Positions 1-27,939 of a DNA stretch of 64,000 nt are shown here, piece after piece. How positions within the stretch are numbered: the stretch's first letter is position 1; every line of letters starts with the position of its first letter. This stretch comes from Clostridium sp. (lineage in GTDB: Bacteria; Bacillota; Dethiobacteria; Dethiobacterales; Dethiobacteraceae), in NCBI GenBank assembly GCA_018335695.1, contig JAGXRV010000013.1, positions 1-64,000 on the forward strand. The letters run 5' to 3'. Below the pieces are notes generated by a model, which had not been told where the DNA came from, did not search any database, and worked only from the letters and a program-made list of their open reading frames with translations. The translations under genes and the position numbers were made by a program.

Positions 1-56
1 GGCAAAAGGCAGAAGCTAAGGGCTAAGGACAAAGGTGAAGGTAATGACCAGAGCAA

Positions 57-276
57 CTCTCCCCTCACCCTCGCTGCGCTCCACCCTCTCCCGTGGGGAG
101 AGGGTAAAATTAGAGGAACTCCCCTCTCCCTCTACAGATCCCCTACAATTCCCCTCTCCCTCTACAGATCCCCTACAACTTCCCTCTCCCTCTACAGATC
201 CCCTACAACTTCCCTCTCCCTCTGGGAGAGGGTTAGGGTGAGGGCAATGGGAGAGGGTTAGGGTGAGGGCAAAGGG
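57..276. repeat. Interspersed CCCTCTCCC/GGGAGAGGG repeat cluster with 31-base tandem units
   Basis: Intergenic block with no supportable gene. It holds one hairpin-type copy (about 57-110), then about three tandem units of roughly 30 bases beginning CCCCTCTCCCTCTACAGATC (about 121-211), and then two GGGAGAGGGTTAGGGTGAGG ends (about 212-270). The ends are inverted (CCCTCTCCC against GGGAGAGGG), so single copies can fold. The same family recurs at many intergenic sites in this window. A 68-codon open frame across it is only translated repeat. Confidence 0.85.
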
Positions 277-2007
277 CTAAGGGTAAACGTCCCGCGCTCG
301 CAAAACGAGCGGCTCTCTTTCAGGCGTGGCAGTGCCGCCGCTGCCGACAAACACCGTCGTCCAGTCCCAGCGTCTCAGAAAACGCCAATCATGATAAAGA
401 GGTCTTGGGTCATAGTCGCGGAGTTCCACAAGCTCCAGCAGCCGCGCCCCGGCGCTGCTCCTCTGCACCTGCAGGCTAAAATCCCAAGCATTGCCGTAAA
501 TTTGTCCGTCAACCGTCAGCCTGCCGTAAACCATCTGCACTAAGGTAGCAGGCTGAGTAGCTGGGCTGGCGTGCAGCCGCACTCTGAAAAAACGATTTTG
601 CCCTGTTTCATTGACTACCCTTCCTGCTACCGTAAAAACATTCTCCGGCGGGACTGCGGGAGGGTGCCTGCGCACATCAAAATGGCGCGGCACAATTTCC
701 AGCAGATCGTCGGCAGTCGCCATAACTCCGTCCTGACCGGCGCTGATGATTTTTAACGTCTGCTCCGGCGGCGGTTCGGCGTCAGCAGCATGACTAAGCC
801 GAAAAGTCAGCGGCATGCCCCAGGCATCCCGCAGCAGCTCTGATGCCCCGCTTCCTTCAGGAGGCGGCAAATACTCTCCGCGCCAACCAAAACCAAGCAG
901 CACACTCCCGGCGGCAGCCGGGTCAGGCGGCAACGGCAAATCAGCCGTCCCGTTCCCGTCGGTATCACGCGTCCACAGACCGCGCGGCTGACCGTAAACC
1001 GCTCCGTCTAGCAAATCCGCCGCTGTCGGCGGTACCCAGACCGGATCTCCCTCAGCGTTCTGCTCCCAGCGACCTGTTACCTGTCGCCACGGGACCTGCC
1101 CATCCTGCCAAACTAACAGCTCCGGCCAACGTCCGTGGTCGCCCACAAAGCCACCGAGCAGCCCTCGACCCAGCCGGTCAACCGGACCGAAACGTCCCAC
1201 CAGCGCGTCGGCAGCAGTCTGCAACAACCGTCTAGTTTCCACTTGCCGCGCCTCATCATGCCACTCCTGCGGCGTAATCACAAGCACCAGATTGTCTTCA
1301 TTCTCCGGCGTATCAAGCCGATAGGCAGGCCAACTGCTGCGCAGGTCTTGTCCTTCGCTGACGACATAGACGGTAGTCTGCACTGTTGCCGTACCCTGAA
1401 ACAATTCCGTCCCCGCCTCCCCGGGCGTTACATAGAAAAAGAGCAGTGACCTGCCCCAAGCGTCAGCAAGCCTCCCCGCCGTCTGACGCATTTCGATTTC
1501 CCTGTTTGCCGTAAACTGCGCATCTGTCAACTGCCCGCCGAATGTCCAGCGCAGGTGCTCCGCGTTAGCCGGAAATTCATCGCGCGGCTCCGGCAAATAA
1601 GGTCCCTGCCAGCGCACAGCATCAGGCGGCGCCAGCCACAGATATTGCGGCTGTCCCATCCCGCTTGCCCAGAAAGCGTTCGCCTCCTGCTCAGAAGCAA
1701 AAGGAATGTCCCACTCCCAGCGCTTTACGCTGTCATTCCAAACGGAGCGGCGTAAAGGCGGCAAGCCGCCCAAATCACCCGCATAACCAGCCAAAACCCT
1801 CCTGCCGCCGGCATCAAGCGCGCCGCGCGGCCCTAGCATAGCCTCGCGCACAGTAGTAAGCAAACGTTCCGTTTCCCGCTCCCGCCCCCGCGCCTCCAGC
1901 CGCCCCGCAAGCGGTACAGCCATCGCAGCAAACATCGCTAAAATCGACAGAATTATTATCACTTCCAGCAAAGAAAAACCTTCTTCGCCAGCCTTTAGCG
2001 GCATCAT
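277..2007 (-). CDS. Pseudopilin-like protein with a duplicated GspG-like domain
   Basis: A type II secretion/type IV pilin-like substrate: a short leader, then the prepilin signature GFSLLEVIIILSILAMF at about residues 11-27, cut by a prepilin peptidase after Gly, with the hydrophobic helix behind it. The rest (576 residues, far longer than a normal GspG of about 140) shows two copies of one pattern: an R/E-rich helix, a GD.G..P segment, W.GPYLP or WRGEYLP, a DAWGRSL or DAWGMPL motif, and VSEGQDL or SAGQDGVMATADD. I chose the start at 2007 (or the adjacent ATG at 2004) because a GGGAGG ribosome site lies just upstream; the frame is open to 2103 but has no site there. Last gene of the operon led by the PstS-like gene. 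The secretion partner is not in the window. Confidence 0.8.
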   Translation of the reverse strand: MMPLKAGEEGFSLLEVIIILSILAMFAAMAVPLAGRLEARGRERETERLLTTVREAMLGPRGALDAGGRRVLAGYAGDLGGLPPLRRSVWNDSVKRWEWDIPFASEQEANAFWASGMGQPQYLWLAPPDAVRWQGPYLPEPRDEFPANAEHLRWTFGGQLTDAQFTANREIEMRQTAGRLADAWGRSLLFFYVTPGEAGTELFQGTATVQTTVYVVSEGQDLRSSWPAYRLDTPENEDNLVLVITPQEWHDEARQVETRRLLQTAADALVGRFGPVDRLGRGLLGGFVGDHGRWPELLVWQDGQVPWRQVTGRWEQNAEGDPVWVPPTAADLLDGAVYGQPRGLWTRDTDGNGTADLPLPPDPAAAGSVLLGFGWRGEYLPPPEGSGASELLRDAWGMPLTFRLSHAADAEPPPEQTLKIISAGQDGVMATADDLLEIVPRHFDVRRHPPAVPPENVFTVAGRVVNETGQNRFFRVRLHASPATQPATLVQMVYGRLTVDGQIYGNAWDFSLQVQRSSAGARLLELVELRDYDPRPLYHDWRFLRRWDWTTVFVGSGGTATPEREPLVLRARDVYP

Positions 2008-2430
2008 GCAACCTCCCTTGTCAAATACCGGCGAAAATGCCGTGCTATCTATTTTTATTCGGCCTGAGCAGAAAGCATCCTGCCTATTTTCAGAGTTAAC
2101 CAAAATATAACATTAAGCTAACAAAAGCTGAACATTGCTTTAAAAATTTCCTACTAATCCCCTCTCTTTTTCTCTACTAAATCCCCTCTCCCTCTGGGAG
2201 AGGGCTAGGGTGAGGGCTAGGGCTAGGGTGAGGGCATCTCCCAAAAGAATCTCCCTCACTGACATAAACGCAGGCAGAGGCCGACTGACGACCCCTGCCT
2301 GCACTGACTGATATTTTTGCCGGCACATTTGCCGGCACACACATGTGCCGCTTTAAATCCGGCTCTCACCCTAGCCCTCTCCCAGGGGGAGAGGGGACTG
2401 GCGAGAAAGGGAGAGGAGATTCTTAGAAGT
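2008..2430. repeat. Intergenic region with two CCCTCTCCC-family copies and an inverted repeat
   Basis: Between the two pseudopilin genes. Copies of the GGGAGAGGG family lie at about 2160-2238 and 2365-2402, in opposite orientations. Between them, CGGCACAT and ATGTGCCG (about 2324-2352) can pair into an 8-bp stem, a possible processing or attenuation site inside the operon. No gene is supported. Confidence 0.65.
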
Positions 2431-3336
2431 TTACTGGATAGTCCAGACGGCTGCCGGCGGCACGGTTCTGCCTTCCGGGCTGAGCACAGTCAATTCAAAA
2501 TTGCCTTGTTGCTCCGTCAGGTCGAAAGTTTCTTGCTGCCCGGCAGCGTTGCTCGCGGTGATTTCCAAGACATTCGGACCGCGGGCGATAGTGCTTGCCA
2601 AGCGCGGCAAGACGAGCAGATAGTTGTTGAAAACATAATTGTCGGTCTGTGTGCCCTGCGGACTGATCGCAGCACCCTGCAACTGTCCGGCGGTCACCAG
2701 TTCGCTGTCCTGACCGAAGCCGAGCACGATGCGGTATGCAAGCGTGGGGTGCAGGATATTCCGGTCGGCGACAAAGCTGTCCGCCCAACCGCCGGCATCA
2801 AAACCGCCGCCGATCATCAGTACCGGCGTACCTGCTTCGACGGGTACCCTTGCCAAAGTAGGCTCAACGGCAGGCACACCGTTAAACAGCGGGTCAACGG
2901 CCGTGCTTGGGTTCAGGTTACGCACTTCGGTAATTCCCAAGCGGGCAAGCTCGGCGGCTTCCGCCTCGCTCAACAGGTGGATATGCAGCGGCAGACTGGC
3001 CGCCAGTTCCGCAGACAAAGCTTCTTTACCGTCAGCCGGATTATTATTGCTGACGTTCAGCCCCTGATACTCATCGGGACCGGTCTCGGAAACAAGATTG
3101 GTCATTTCGGCCGGCAAACGACCGGTACGCTCCTGGAACTGACTGGTCGCTTGCAGCAGACGGCTGATATTCGTATCGTCCGCATTGCGCTGCGCACCGG
3201 CTACCACCCCGGCCAAGCGGGGTGCAATCATCGCTACCAAAAAGCCCATAATCGCCAGCACCACGACAAGTTCGAGCAGTGTGAAACCGCCGGTGGATGC
3301 GCGCAGGCTATGCAATAATTTACGCAAACCTCTCAC
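2431..3336 (-). CDS. Prepilin-type N-terminal methylation protein (pseudopilin)
   Basis: Secreted pilin-like protein of 301 residues. A basic leader ends in GGFTLLELVVVLAIMGFLVAM (near residues 16-36), the classic prepilin cleavage/methylation motif with Glu at +5 and a hydrophobic assembly helix. The remaining 265 residues are not recognisable beyond a mixed, Ala/Pro-rich globular domain. An AAGGAG site sits directly against the GTG at 3345, which makes that codon too close; the GTG at 3336, eight bases downstream of the site, fits better. It follows the PstS-like gene by 48 bases and is probably co-transcribed with it. Role (minor pilin, secretion pseudopilin or adhesin) cannot be told. Confidence 0.8.
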   Translation of the reverse strand: MRGLRKLLHSLRASTGGFTLLELVVVLAIMGFLVAMIAPRLAGVVAGAQRNADDTNISRLLQATSQFQERTGRLPAEMTNLVSETGPDEYQGLNVSNNNPADGKEALSAELAASLPLHIHLLSEAEAAELARLGITEVRNLNPSTAVDPLFNGVPAVEPTLARVPVEAGTPVLMIGGGFDAGGWADSFVADRNILHPTLAYRIVLGFGQDSELVTAGQLQGAAISPQGTQTDNYVFNNYLLVLPRLASTIARGPNVLEITASNAAGQQETFDLTEQQGNFELTVLSPEGRTVPPAAVWTIQ

Positions 3337-3384
3337 TTCTTTCACTCCTTAAAGATTATTTAGAGTCAAATCTGAAACTACAAG

Positions 3385-5217
3385 TTAGTTAACGCGGATG
3401 GTGCCAAGCAGTCTTGCGACTTCGCGCTTCATCGTCGGGGTCAGCGGCGCCATATGCAGTCTGCGGGCTTCCGCGTCGCCGAAGCCTTCAACTACAGCCC
3501 AGTCAACAAAGTCGGCGACAATGGCGTTGCGCTGAACGGCAGCCTCAAGGTCTGTACCAGTCAGAGCAGGTTGTGCTAAGATAAGATTATCATTTAATGT
3601 AGCAACCTGCACAGAGTCGCCGATCGGCTTCGCTACGCCGGGGTCTCTTTCCACTAAAATCCAGGTTAAGCCTGTAATCGGATAAGCGCCGGGATTGGCG
3701 GAATTTACCGGGTGGCGCAATACGTTGCCGTGCCCGATACCGGCTGCGTACACATTGCTAATCAGCGGTAGAGTGAAGATGCCGGCGCGGTTTTGCACAC
3801 GGGCGATACCGAAAGGACCTACCGGTGCAGTCGTTACATTACGACCGGTAACGTCACCAAAGCTGACAAAACCGATGGAATTTTCGGCTGCTGCCACCCT
3901 GCCCCGCAGAGCGCTACCACCGTCTGTAGAAGCTGGTGCCTGCGTCCGGGTACGGTCAGCTAATAAGGCAGCCGTCCAGCCACCGACGCCAGGGGTAAAG
4001 ATAGAGGTGGCTCCGGGACCTTCCATATCAACTGTTGTTTCCTGTTCTGTTGTGAGGGTATCCCGCCAAACGCGAGAAGCGGCGGCTAGGTAGGCGGTGA
4101 AAATTTCCGTGGTGCCGGAAACATCCGGACGCCAGTTGACCTGAATTGGTGTAGCGGGCAACGCTACGCGCGGATTGAGACGCACAAGGGCTGCGTCATT
4201 CCAATGGCTGATTTGTCCAAGGAAAATACGAGCAATAACATCGGCAGTCAGGTTCAGGTTAGTAATGCGGACGCCGTTTCTGTCGACCAGGTTAAAGATG
4301 ACAGCTACGCCGCCTTTGGCGGTGGGGATGGCCGGGAAGGCCTCCAGAACGGCGGCAGGCACTTGACTGATCATATCGGTGCCGCCAAAATCGGCAAGGC
4401 GCAAGCGCACGGAGTCGACGCCCATGCCGGAGCCGCTTGTTGCGCCACCGGCGGGAATGGTATCCAGCGTTGTAGCGCCGCCTACTGTAATCCGGTTATA
4501 ACCAACGCGTGCCTCAGGGTTAAGGCCGGAGGACAAGTCTTGGGAAGAGAAGAAGTAGCGCTCAAGCCATGGATTGGCAGGAGCTGCAAGGTCGGTACCG
4601 GCAAAAGCGCTGCCGTAGAGAGAATTGGGGAAGGTGGCGCCGCGACCGATCATACGCGCAGCATCTTGATAAACACCGGTGGTAACTACATTACGCTGTT
4701 GACCGGCTGCAGTAAAATCAAACGCCGCATCCGGCGCATCATTGCGCACTGTGGCGACACGGGCGCTGGTGAAGCTGCCGCCCAAATGACGCACTACATC
4801 TGCAAAGGGTACGAACAGATCACGCGCCGCCACTGTACGCGGCAGAGCTGTTAGGGTAACGTTTCTGGTACTTGGGGAAGCGGTGCCGATGCCGGTCGTC
4901 AAAAATGCGGTACGGCTGTCGGCTAAGATAAACAGTTCGCGGCTGCCATGACGCACGAGCATGGAACCGGGAGTGATCTCGACTACAGCTGAAACACTGG
5001 CATGCTGCAATGCTGTACGGAGCGATGAAGCGAGTGCCAGCTCTACGCCGCCGCGGCCGCGCTGTGCGCCGATGCGACGGGTGTCGACTGCCTGACCGTT
5101 AATAGTCGGGCGGGCGGATGCTTCCGCCGGTGCTGCCAGCGGTGCCACACTGCCGAACACGAGGGAGAGGACGAGCATGGCTACTATCAGAGAAACGGAT
5201 TTAAATCTTTTCTTCAC
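3385..5217 (-). CDS. Secreted protein: copper-amine-oxidase-like N-domain plus PstS-like domain
   Basis: 610 residues. A signal peptide (basic KKR, hydrophobic core, cut near residue 31-34) marks export. Residues about 35-150 resemble the copper amine oxidase N-terminal/stalk domain (DLFVPFADVVRHLGG matches the usual VPLRAV...LGA pattern). From about 190 on it looks like a PstS phosphate-binding protein: GATFPNSLYG, an FGGTDM stretch, GGVAVIFNL, IFLGQISHWNDAALVRLNP, and DVSGTTEIFTAYL. Start is GTG with AAGGAGG seven bases upstream. There are no pstCAB transporter genes nearby; two pseudopilin genes follow instead. Binding of phosphate is inference; it may be a surface or scaffold protein built on a PstS fold. 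Confidence 0.75.
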   Translation of the reverse strand: MKKRFKSVSLIVAMLVLSLVFGSVAPLAAPAEASARPTINGQAVDTRRIGAQRGRGGVELALASSLRTALQHASVSAVVEITPGSMLVRHGSRELFILADSRTAFLTTGIGTASPSTRNVTLTALPRTVAARDLFVPFADVVRHLGGSFTSARVATVRNDAPDAAFDFTAAGQQRNVVTTGVYQDAARMIGRGATFPNSLYGSAFAGTDLAAPANPWLERYFFSSQDLSSGLNPEARVGYNRITVGGATTLDTIPAGGATSGSGMGVDSVRLRLADFGGTDMISQVPAAVLEAFPAIPTAKGGVAVIFNLVDRNGVRITNLNLTADVIARIFLGQISHWNDAALVRLNPRVALPATPIQVNWRPDVSGTTEIFTAYLAAASRVWRDTLTTEQETTVDMEGPGATSIFTPGVGGWTAALLADRTRTQAPASTDGGSALRGRVAAAENSIGFVSFGDVTGRNVTTAPVGPFGIARVQNRAGIFTLPLISNVYAAGIGHGNVLRHPVNSANPGAYPITGLTWILVERDPGVAKPIGDSVQVATLNDNLILAQPALTGTDLEAAVQRNAIVADFVDWAVVEGFGDAEARRLHMAPLTPTMKREVARLLGTIRVN

Positions 5218-5468
5218 TTTGCTTCCTCCTTAGCTCATTTTACTCATTTTTTGCTTAAAGACTTTTTTGGGCTTTTTCCTGTAGACAGAACTACTCTGCA
5301 ATATTCAGTTTTCGGTCACCGGAACGCTTCTTAAACTCGGTCAAGTCAGGCTGCTTGCGGCAGGCAGACTGGATTTACATTGCTCTGCCGGCTATCCTCT
5401 CACCACCTTAAAGCGAAGTCGCCTCTGTCTGCAGTTATCTGCAGACCTCCAGGGTTTTCACCCTTTCC
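5218..5468 (-). promoter_or_regulatory. Long structured 5' leader, possible riboswitch or attenuator
   Basis: About 250 transcribed bases lie between the promoter and the GTG of the PstS-like gene. On the minus strand it can form AGGGT-GAAA-ACCCT (a GNRA-capped hairpin, about 5453-5466), then GTCTGCAG-ATAA-CTGCAGAC (a perfect 8-bp stem, about 5432-5451), then a short GGCGA/CGCT hairpin, then a GGATAGCCGGCAG segment. I compared it by eye with c-di-GMP-I and II, c-di-AMP, TPP, lysine, SAM, FMN and cobalamin classes and could not match a conserved core. Confidence 0.5.
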
Positions 5469-5474
5469 TCATCC

Positions 5475-5503
5475 AGTATAACAGTGCAATGTTAAATTGC
5501 CAG
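5475..5503 (-). promoter_or_regulatory. Extended -10 promoter of the PstS-like/pseudopilin operon
   Basis: On the minus strand TGTTATACT at 5475-5483 is an extended -10 (TGn plus TATACT). The region 17 bases upstream (CTGGCA) is a poor -35, as is common with extended -10 promoters. Transcription would start near 5468. Confidence 0.5.
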
Positions 5504-5599
5504 GCAAGTTATATTAACTGTGGTTAAATTTTCCATGAAATTTCTGCTTTTTCAGGTTACATAATTTTTCTAAGCAGCAAAAAAATGGAGTAAGAGCAA

Positions 5600-5741
5600 G
5601 CTCCCCCTCTATTCCAGATACCCTCTCCCGCGGGGAGAGGGGATCTGGAATAGAGGGATAGGGTAAAAATTGGGGGATGAGGGGAGTTTTCTTTTGTTTC
5701 CTCTCCACCCTCTGGGGGGAGAGGGTTAGGGTGAGGGGGGA
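5600..5741. repeat. CCCTCTCCC-family repeat copies
   Basis: Two or three copies: CCCTCTCCCGCGGGGAGAGGG near 5620-5640 as a near-perfect hairpin, and a GGGGGGAGAGGGTTAGGG end at about 5710-5735. It separates the tRNA terminator from the pseudopilin operon promoter. Open frames here are artefacts. Confidence 0.8.
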
Positions 5742-5782: not shown

Positions 5783-5824
5783 AAAAAAAAACAGCGGCAA
5801 GACGTTGTAAAACATCCTGCCGCT
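5783..5824 (-). terminator. Intrinsic terminator of the tRNA cluster
   Basis: On the minus strand AGCGGCA pairs with TGCCGCT around a partly paired loop, followed by a run of about nine T (complement of 5783-5791). It lies directly after the last tRNA. Confidence 0.8.
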
Positions 5825-5836
5825 ATTATTTTTTAA

Positions 5837-11035: not shown

Positions 11036-12793
11036 TTATGCTTTGTTAAGTGTCAGATGAAAGGTAGAGCCTTGCCCCGGCACACTCTCAAGACCTACTG
11101 TGCCGCCATGGGTTTCCACGATCTGCTTGACAATAGAAAGTCCTAGTCCCGTGCCGCCGAAACGGCGGGTACGGGCTTTGTCAACTTTGTGGAAACGTCC
11201 CCAAATTTTTTCCTGTTCCTCAGGCGGGATTCCCACACCTGTATCGGAAACGCTAAGGCGAACCATTTCCGCCGCAGGGACAGCAGCCAGTGTAATCTTG
11301 CCGCCGGCAGGAGTAAACGAGACCGCATTGCCGAGCAGATTAATCAGCACCTGTTGGATTCTGTCTTTGTTTCCTAAAACAGCAGGCAAATCCCCGTCAA
11401 CTTTAATTTCCAGCGTCAGATTCTGTCTTTCCAGTTGAGGCTGGAATTTGGCTGCAACCTGTTCAAAAAGCGGCCTAACAGCTACTTCTTCCATCGGCCA
11501 GGAAACTTGGCGCGCTTCAAGCTGCGAAAGATCAAGCAGATCGTTGACTAAAGAGTTTAATCGTACTGTTTCGTCCAGGATAATGTTTAAATAGCGGTTT
11601 TGACTCTCTTTATCCTCAGCCAATCCGTCAAGCAGCGCTTCGACAAACCCCTGGATAGATGTCATCGGAGTCCGCAATTCATGCGAGACATTGGCTACAA
11701 AATCTCTGCGCATCTGTTCCAACCGCCGCACCTCCGTCACATCCTGTAAAATCCCTACGGCACCCCAAGTGCGGTCAGCCCGACGCAGCGGAGCAATCTG
11801 CAGAAAGAGAATTTTCCCATCGGAAAGATGATATTCCGCAGATGCAGTCTCGCTGGTAATGATAACTTGCCGATATAGTTCAGACATCGCCTCATTTTGC
11901 AGCAAAGAGTGAATCTCTCTGCCGGTAAAATCCTTCTCCATAGATTGCAGAAGCAGTTTAGCCTGAGGATTGGCAAGAATCACCTGTCCCTGCCGGTCGA
12001 CGGCAAGCACGCCTTCATTCATGCTCAGCATAATATTTTCCAACTTTGCCTTTTCATGCGATAATGCTTCCACCGTCTGCTGCAAAGTCGACGACATATA
12101 ATTAAACGTCCGGGCCAACTGTCCCACTTCGTCAAGAGAAGCAACTTCCACCTGTTGCTGATAATTGCCGCCTGCCACTTCCAGGGCGGCACGGTTCATA
12201 AGTTGCAGCGGCTGCGAGATAGACTTTGACATATAGAAGCCGACAATCATCGCCAAGATGGTAGCGGCAAGAGCGGCATAAGCAATCATGTTTCTCACTT
12301 GTGCGACTGTGGCTGAAATTCCTGTCAGCGGAGCAATAAGAAAAATGCCACCCCAAACATCATTCATGGCAAAAATCGGCACTACCACAGTAAGCATTTG
12401 TTCTCTCGTCTCATGGTGAAAGCTCCGCTTTGAGACTACCTGCCCGTTTAACACCTGACCCAACTCATCGTCAGTTAAGCGCAAACCCGTCTCGTCAAAA
12501 CCGGCGCTTGAAGCAAGCAGTAGCATGTCTTTAGGCATTAAATGAACATCGGCATCCATAAAGCGGCGCAAAGCAAAAAGCAGGTCGTCTGAAATGCGCG
12601 GATCCTGAAGACCGAGAATCATATTGGAAAAAATTTCGGAAACCTGCCGGCCTTTAAGCGACAACTCCCTTTCGCGGGCATCATAGAAATAAGTTTGAAA
12701 AAGCTGTGTTAAAAAAAGCCCGACAACAAGCAAGGTGATCAGAATGATCACCAAGTAAGTTGTCAGCAGCTTGCTGAAGATGTTTGTTTTCAC
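11036..12793 (-). CDS. Membrane sensor histidine kinase (WalK/PhoR/ResE type)
   Basis: 585 residues. TM helices at about 11-33 and 168-188 enclose an extracellular sensor of about 135 residues; then HAMP (189-241), PAS (about 250-355), HisKA with the phospho-acceptor His371 in NVSHELRTPM, and HATPase with DTGVGIPPEE and GGTGLGLSIVKQIV. It autophosphorylates and passes phosphate to the response regulator encoded just upstream; the GTGA overlap of four bases shows translational coupling. Domain order fits WalK, PhoR and ResE alike. No walH/walI genes follow, so the precise stimulus cannot be named. Confidence 0.92.
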   Translation of the reverse strand: MKTNIFSKLLTTYLVIILITLLVVGLFLTQLFQTYFYDARERELSLKGRQVSEIFSNMILGLQDPRISDDLLFALRRFMDADVHLMPKDMLLLASSAGFDETGLRLTDDELGQVLNGQVVSKRSFHHETREQMLTVVVPIFAMNDVWGGIFLIAPLTGISATVAQVRNMIAYAALAATILAMIVGFYMSKSISQPLQLMNRAALEVAGGNYQQQVEVASLDEVGQLARTFNYMSSTLQQTVEALSHEKAKLENIMLSMNEGVLAVDRQGQVILANPQAKLLLQSMEKDFTGREIHSLLQNEAMSELYRQVIITSETASAEYHLSDGKILFLQIAPLRRADRTWGAVGILQDVTEVRRLEQMRRDFVANVSHELRTPMTSIQGFVEALLDGLAEDKESQNRYLNIILDETVRLNSLVNDLLDLSQLEARQVSWPMEEVAVRPLFEQVAAKFQPQLERQNLTLEIKVDGDLPAVLGNKDRIQQVLINLLGNAVSFTPAGGKITLAAVPAAEMVRLSVSDTGVGIPPEEQEKIWGRFHKVDKARTRRFGGTGLGLSIVKQIVETHGGTVGLESVPGQGSTFHLTLNKA

Positions 12794-13485
12794 TTTTCAT
12801 GCACCTCGAATTTATAGCCCACACCCCAAATTGTTTTTACCCGGGGCGAGGCGCCTTCACGCTCCACTTTTTCCCGTAAACGTTTAATATGGGTATCAAC
12901 CGTGCGTAAATCACCGAAATAATCATATCCCCAAACTGCCGTCAGCAACTGCTCCCGCGTAAACACTTTGCCCGGTTTTTTTGCAAGAAACCACAAAAGA
13001 TCAAATTCCTTGGGGGTCAGCGTGACCTCTTGTCCTGCTACAAACACTTCCCTGGAAGCCATGTTAATCACCAGCCCGGGATAGTTTACCATTTCAGCGA
13101 CAGGGGCAGTCCCGTCATGACTGGTTCTGCGCAGGATAGCTTTAACCCGGGCAACCAGCTCCCTCGGGGAGAAAGGCTTTGTCAAATAATCATCGGCGCC
13201 AAGCTCCAGACCAAGCACTTTATCAAACTCTTCACCTTTAGCAGTCAGCATAATAATCGGTGTCTCCGAAAATTTTCGCACTTCGCGGCAAACATCCCAC
13301 CCACCCATTTTGGGAAGCATAATATCGAGGATAATAAGTTGGGGGCTGATGGCTTTAACCTTTTGCAGCGCTTCCTCGCCGTCAACGGCTAAAGCTACCG
13401 CAAAGCCTTCCTTTTCCAGATACAGCCTGACCAGTTCCCGGATATGTTCTTCATCGTCGACAACGAGAATCAGTGCTTCGCTCAA
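12790..13485 (-). CDS. OmpR/PhoB-family response regulator
   Basis: 231 residues. Receiver domain with acidic Asp10/Asp11, phospho-acceptor Asp54 (LIILDIMLPKMGG), Thr81 and Lys103 (LTKPFSPREL); C-terminal winged helix from about 130, with the recognition-helix region YFGDLRTVDTHIKRLREK. It partners the overlapping kinase gene downstream. Start looks like TTG at 13485 with a GGGAAG site. A CCCTCTCCC repeat cluster sits in its upstream region, so its promoter must lie within or beyond the repeats. Confidence 0.93.
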   Translation of the reverse strand: MSEALILVVDDEEHIRELVRLYLEKEGFAVALAVDGEEALQKVKAISPQLIILDIMLPKMGGWDVCREVRKFSETPIIMLTAKGEEFDKVLGLELGADDYLTKPFSPRELVARVKAILRRTSHDGTAPVAEMVNYPGLVINMASREVFVAGQEVTLTPKEFDLLWFLAKKPGKVFTREQLLTAVWGYDYFGDLRTVDTHIKRLREKVEREGASPRVKTIWGVGYKFEVHEK

Positions 13486-27482: not shown

Positions 27483-27561
27483 CCAAAGCCTCCCGTTGCC
27501 AGAATAATTGCACAGTTAACTTAGTATACCAAGCATCTATTAGAAAATTTTTATTAAAGTG

Positions 27562-27939
27562 TTAAAAAATATTAATTTTATCTGCAAGCAGAGGGAGAAA
27601 AATCAAAAAGCCGACAACTAAAGCATACAGGGACGCCAGCAATGCGGCGCCGGCTGCGGCATTTTTCGCCAAGCGGGCAAGCGGATGGTATTCCTTAGTA
27701 AAAAGATCAACTACCCGCTCCAGAGCAGTATTTAGCATTTCCATAGTAACGACTAAAAAAATAGCAGATAATAAAAAGAGCCACTCCGACCTGTCAAGCC
27801 CTAGCCAAAAACCGGCAGCCACAGCCAACGCCGCCGCAAAAGAGTGAATGCGCATATTCCTCTCGCTCTGCCACGCGTCCGCCAAACCACAGAGCGCAAA
27901 GCGAAAACTTGCACGGATATCTTTTGCTTTAAAGCCCAT
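27562..27939 (-). CDS. dgkA: Diacylglycerol/undecaprenol kinase
   Basis: 125 residues, three TM helices. Integral membrane kinase of the DgkA family; in Gram-positives the substrate is mostly undecaprenol. Family signature VTMEMLNTALERVVDL with the catalytic Glu at the membrane edge. The ATG at 27939 has GGAGG nine bases upstream; the in-frame TTG at 27948 touches that site and is unlikely. Overlaps the end of ybeY by 11 bases. Confidence 0.94.
   Translation of the reverse strand: MGFKAKDIRASFRFALCGLADAWQSERNMRIHSFAAALAVAAGFWLGLDRSEWLFLLSAIFLVVTMEMLNTALERVVDLFTKEYHPLARLAKNAAAGAALLASLYALVVGFLIFLPLLADKINIF

Follow-up and report, generated by a model that had tools for sequence, protein, structure and literature searches.

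Gene content of the locus

The window analyzed here, a stretch of 64,000 nucleotides, carries on its minus strand an operon that begins with a gene for a secreted PstS-like protein and continues with two pseudopilin genes, and that is preceded by a long leader, an extended -10 promoter and tandem TTAAC-type repeats (Table 1). Base 1 of the window is the end of contig C13 and lies inside the operon. The original prediction of a secretion/pilin-type operon with two pseudopilins was right, two ORFs with class-III signals following the PstS-like ORF, but the operon is larger than described, since GspL/M-like genes, PilT, PilB and PilC come after them; neither the Pho-box repeats 5′ of the -10 nor the interruption by the contig end had been mentioned.

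Table 1. Features of the pseudopilus operon, its promoter and leader, and the candidate regulator genes in the window
Feature	Position	Strand	Remarks
Contig edge	1..75	-	Reverse complement and bases 1-75 of contig C6 are identical
Pseudopilin 2, up to 608 aa as listed	277..2103	-	N_methyl 19.3 bits, just under cut-off
Pseudopilin 1, 304 aa	2431..3345	-	N_methyl above cut-off; GspG-like N-terminus
PstS-like secreted protein, 610 aa	3385..5217	-	Signal peptide without lipobox
5′ leader, about 250 nt	5218..5468	-	Predicted start near 5468; no Rfam match
Shared leader block TTAAGAAGCGTTCCGGTGACCGAAAACTGAA, 35 nt	5303..5337	-	Only block above chance against G010
Third small hairpin	5410..5425	-	
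Perfect 8-bp hairpin GUCUGCAG-AUAA-CUGCAGAC	5427..5446	-	Without conservation in relatives
5′-terminal hairpin AGGGU-GAAA-ACCCU, 5 bp	5451..5464	-	GAAA-capped
-10 TATACT (extended, TGTTATACT)	5475..5480	-	9 bases past the last TTAAC-type repeat
Predicted Pho box	5490..5527	-	TTAACC 5527-5522, TTAATA 5517-5512, TTAACA 5495-5490; from pst-like repeat spacing and matrix score
Intrinsic terminator of upstream tRNA cluster	5790..5827	-	5′ boundary of the operon
Candidate PnpS/WalK/PhoR-type kinase	11036..12793	-	Models below equivalog cut-offs
Candidate PhoB/YycF-type response regulator	12790..13485	-	Models below equivalog cut-offs

The 610-residue protein matches PBP_like_2 (2.3e-14) and the PstS model TIGR00975 (2.3e-34), the latter with 118.9 bits against an equivalog cut-off of 205, and is therefore called PstS-like and not PstS. 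PstS structures (PDB) match its central part, and the phosphate-site motifs GATF, GSG, DFGGTD and RPDVSGTT are retained, in keeping with membership of the PBP family; the protein stays below the equivalog cut-offs and may lack phosphate binding. Full-length relatives are present only in genomes G010 (72%) and G018 (45%), and the nearest paralogues are CAO_N-PstS fusions heading the pstCAB operon in the same genome and its relatives, the copy in genome G003 having a Pho box of its own. It had been described as a CAO/PstS protein: the PstS part of that description holds as PstS-like, while the CAO domain belongs to a PstS paralogue encoded at another locus and is not recognized by Pfam in this protein. 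The profile alignment to the CAO_N-PstS paralogues begins at residue 89, so that a degenerate part of the domain is possible.

Orthologues of pseudopilin 2, which is probably translated from the ATG near 2010, were found in both G010 and G018. The latter has the uninterrupted order PstS-like, pseudopilin 1, pseudopilin 2, GspL/PilM-like, GspM/PilN-like, PilT, PilB, PilC. In the genome studied here the GspL/M-like, PilT, PilB and PilC genes lie on contig C6, with a PilB 84% identical to that of G010; the contiguity of C13 and C6 is only likely, since their 75-base overlap is a repeat present twice in C6. In G010 the second half of the operon has a Pho box to itself some 450 bases ahead of it, and the interval contains a terminator-like hairpin together with a fragment of a pseudopilin gene. 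Dispersed repeats of the CCCTCTCCC/GGGAGAGGG type (window 1-300 and 5600-5720; contig L148, 1-430) break the assembly between C13 and C6 and are also found just upstream of the promoter.

PilT exceeds the cut-off of its subfamily, PilB and PilC match their families below the equivalog cut-offs, and PilB contains an MshEN c-di-GMP-binding domain above cut-offs; the GspL/PilM-like and GspM/PilN-like labels were assigned by gene order with weak matches, and the operon showed no short major pilin. A further PilB, at about 42% identity, is present in nearly every genome of the family, which makes this operon a second system. It has the pseudopilins, GspE-type ATPase and GspF-type protein by which type II systems are recognized. 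No secretin (GspD, PF00263) was found in the 20 genomes searched, with control searches positive in 6 of 14 known genomes, and the cell is thus probably monoderm; taking the secretin as criterion, the operon as sequenced is not a type II secretion system.

A promoter with the architecture of pst promoters

The extended -10 that had been proposed is present, and the sequence upstream of it has the order TTAACC-N4-TTAATA-N16-TTAACA-N9-TATACT, to be compared with TTAACA-N5-TTAACA-N16-TTAACA-N9-TATAAT in the typical pst promoter of the same genome and its relatives. The N16 and N9 spacings are identical in the window promoter and in the pst promoters of its own genome and eight relatives (TTAAyA-N16-TTAAyA-N9-TATAmT), the operons compared being pstSCAB-phoU or, in G010, a pstB-phoU unit. 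A comparison of the three upstream regions shows that TTAAC-type repeats are kept in all three pseudopilin operons, which have in common the N4 between the first two repeats, the sole consistent difference from pst (N5). Across 20 genomes, sites matching TTAAYA-N16-TTAAYA-N9-TATAMT without mismatch are those of pst promoters and of this operon (in 3/3 genomes having it), plus one in G010 upstream of pil genes and one in G003 before a ugp-like operon. With a matrix trained on the relatives' pst promoters only, the window site scores 24.1, as against a maximum of 20.2 over 300 random 64-kb windows.

As expected for members of one Pho regulon, the genome's own pst operon has tandem repeats at an equal distance from its -10, and by spacing and score the repeats upstream of the window -10 are a predicted Pho box. 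The first two of them are separated by 4 bases (10-bp period), where pst has 5, and TTAAyC-NN-GrTTAA also fits a palindromic reading; this part could therefore be the site of a different regulator.

The Pho box of Bacillus subtilis PhoP is made of TTAACA-type repeats. Tandem TTAAC-type repeats, CTTAACCT, also make up the box of cyanobacterial SphR (PMC1906773). The repeats described here resemble both in their tandem arrangement 5′ of pst and other phosphate genes, but their spacing of 10 or 11, 22 and 15 is that of the pst promoters of Dethiobacteraceae relatives, and the regulator is a candidate only. The nearest candidate for PhoR/PhoP is the predicted kinase and response regulator pair encoded in the window, which scores equally well with WalK/YycF models and could be WalRK instead of PhoPR.

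A long leader with a 5′-terminal hairpin

The roughly 250 untranslated bases of the original prediction were confirmed up to the SD AAGGAGG and the GTG start, as were its GNRA-capped stem, perfect 8-bp stem and small stem, which follow one another at leader positions 11-65. Folding of the leader held up in part: over its first ~60 bases local stability exceeds that of shuffles (z -4.4 for the best 60-nt window, selected among those tested), and over its entire length it does not (z -0.92 and -0.53 in two runs), the whole leaders of the two relatives being likewise unremarkable (z -0.65 and -0.06). In these relatives the leader at the equivalent place measures 229 and 226 nt, giving a range of about 226-257 nt in three species, as opposed to some 50 nt for the genome's own pst leader.

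Type IV pilus operons of Clostridia are known to carry c-di-GMP riboswitches, and the leader, correctly said to be without the known core of these, had been taken for a new or divergent riboswitch or a protein-binding attenuator. This idea fared poorly. Rfam at curated (gathering) thresholds returned only the four upstream tRNAs; at permissive thresholds nothing credible appeared in the window leader and nothing at all in those of the relatives, and the c-di-GMP riboswitch models gave no match in the three leaders. Attenuation and a leader peptide were rejected, as the small ORFs are not conserved and no intrinsic terminator is present inside the leader.

A new metabolite- or cyclic-dinucleotide-sensing element controlling the pilin operon could account for the length of the leader in three species, for the row of stable hairpins in the window copy and for the 35-nt block conserved in G010, where block AGTTTAAGAAGCGTTCCGGTGACCGAAAACTGAA was equalled in 4 of 1000 shuffles and the two-sequence consensus fold is better than column shuffles (5/300 as good). 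Such an element is nonetheless very improbable, given the lack of any Rfam match and of overall stability (z -0.06 to -0.92) in the three leaders. The sequence diverges fast: only the G010 leader aligns well, the two having a single short block and the 5′-terminal hairpin in common; similarity to that of G018 is not above chance; a model of the shared block recovers just its two source sequences from the 20 family genomes; and no second copy was found by BLAST of the genome and its genus or with a covariance model over the family genomes. Both-sided changes affect only 4 of 28 consensus pairs, with two alignable sequences, and no conserved helix sequestering the SD was seen.

With no Rfam match, no overall fold signal and little conservation, the most likely reading of the leader is a long UTR of the ordinary kind, possibly stabilized by its 5′ hairpin. 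Protein binding, processing or mRNA stabilization by the leader, as a post-transcriptional adjustment added to Pho control, is conceivable, if somewhat doubtful. All three species have retained a long leader, and a hairpin stands just past the predicted start in 3/3, in G018 with an unrelated sequence; yet the combined p of about 0.008 is of modest significance and was chosen post hoc, and the remaining hairpins are not shared. C-di-GMP may instead act on the system through the MshEN domain of the PilB ATPase.

A probable phosphate-starvation operon

The promoter shared with pst and the gene content and order suggest that the promoter and long 5′ UTR belong to a phosphate-starvation operon, in which the Pho box controls expression and the leader is not the switch, a reading that we give a probability of about 0.8. 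At low phosphate, a phosphorylated PhoP/PhoB-type regulator would bind the TTAAC repeats, which would substitute for a -35 element, and recruit RNA polymerase to the extended -10. The induced transcript would encode the PstS-like protein, both large pseudopilins and the GspL/PilM-like, GspM/PilN-like, PilT, PilB and PilC proteins, and these products would together form a second and dedicated pseudopilus resembling a type IV pilus, which would carry the PstS-like protein, release it or operate beside it for phosphate scavenging. The 5′ hairpin would most plausibly shield the mRNA end, the rest of the leader being a fast-evolving UTR.

What the machine does is a separate matter. One tentative idea, to which we give less credence than disbelief, is that a Pho-induced pseudopilus, gated by c-di-GMP at PilB, extrudes or displays a phosphate-binding protein past the monoderm wall, as a separately arisen Gram-positive-type counterpart of the Hxc/Psp system discussed below. 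The operon may alternatively encode a standard type IV pilus, serving motility, adhesion or DNA uptake, that happens to be under Pho control, DNA being a phosphorus source and the PstS-like protein a separate scavenger. The presence of PilB and PilC and of a PilT above its subfamily cut-off agrees with this, and retraction suits uptake more than secretion; an ordinary pilus is still rather unlikely, because the PstS-like gene stands first in the operon in 3/3 genomes, the pseudopilins are unusually large (304 and up to 608 aa), the operon shows no short major pilin, and the PilB at about 42% in nearly every family genome is a possible housekeeping system.

Comparison with known systems

Type IVa pilus loci of Clostridia contain PilB, PilT, PilC and PilM/N-type genes and no secretin, in a Gram-positive-type cell. 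The operon described here resembles them in having PilB, PilT, PilC and PilM/N-type genes without secretin, but differs in its PstS-like lead gene, large pseudopilins and Pho-box promoter, and no c-di-GMP riboswitch was detected in it.

In gene content and promoter, the operon is also comparable to two systems of diderm bacteria. The psp gene of Pseudomonas fluorescens SBW25 encodes a DING/PstS-like protein, is induced by Pi limitation from a predicted Pho box, and adjoins the Hxc type II system, through which Psp is mainly secreted; Hxc is a Gram-negative 11-gene system whose hxcR is not Pi-induced (PMC2225411). Both cases have a gene for a PstS-like exoprotein beside its own secretion-type machinery, and a predicted Pho box; unlike in Hxc, the PstS-like and machine genes here form one run behind the Pho box and include PilT, and the genomes yielded no secretin. 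In Caulobacter crescentus, ElpS is a phosphate-starvation-induced extracellular protein, an outer-membrane lipoprotein of a diderm host, whose gene adjoins a type II system (PMC2996285). The likeness lies in gene context and the link to phosphate starvation, a proposed one here, apart from any homology comparison of ElpS with the PstS-like protein, whose host, in contrast, is probably monoderm.

The Hxc/Psp and ElpS parallels being known already, what appears new is a Pho-box-driven PstS-like/pseudopilus operon in a probably monoderm host; in the literature covered, which lies outside most subscription journals, no paper joining Pho box, PstS and pilus in Firmicutes was found. If our reading is true, phosphate hunger in these uncultured Bacillota induces an entire pilus-type machine and, with it, a secreted phosphate-binding protein; this would be a parallel to Pseudomonas and Caulobacter among cells in which no outer-membrane secretin is recognizable, and a defined case in which to study the function of pseudopili in monoderms. 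The leader as riboswitch would then be a false lead and not the first thing to pursue.

Distribution of the operon and further Pho-like sites

The operon is present in 3 of 20 family genomes (this one, G010 and G018), with no wider relatives beyond these three among 398 phylum or 98 class genomes; a scan of species genomes returned only the record of G010 and a weak partial match.

The second-best Pho-like site of the window (27523-27565, minus strand; score 19.9, inside the null range) precedes a 350-aa ORF without NCBIfam match and has close counterparts in G001, G002 and G003 of the same genus; as its CTAATA repeat deviates from the box, it may be an ordinary conserved promoter. Short contigs of G003 (L110, G003:C60; L111, C142; L112, C171; L113, C182) carry dense arrays of TTAAC at 11-bp intervals, which precede a ugp-like transporter operon or lie near a large 5′-nucleotidase-like gene and elsewhere; these contigs possibly come from a different organism that has a similar Pho box and contaminates the MAG. 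In G010, pstB-phoU lies immediately 3′ of a Pho box (L069, 7370-8905), with no pstS, pstC or pstA at the locus. In the same genome, from G010:C39:19445 on (L115, 446-600), a perfect Pho box precedes, by no more than about 100 bases, a terminator-like GC hairpin with a T run, past which lies a pseudopilin fragment; the site could be a second operon head, duplicated and since decayed, or else the source of a short Pho-driven RNA.
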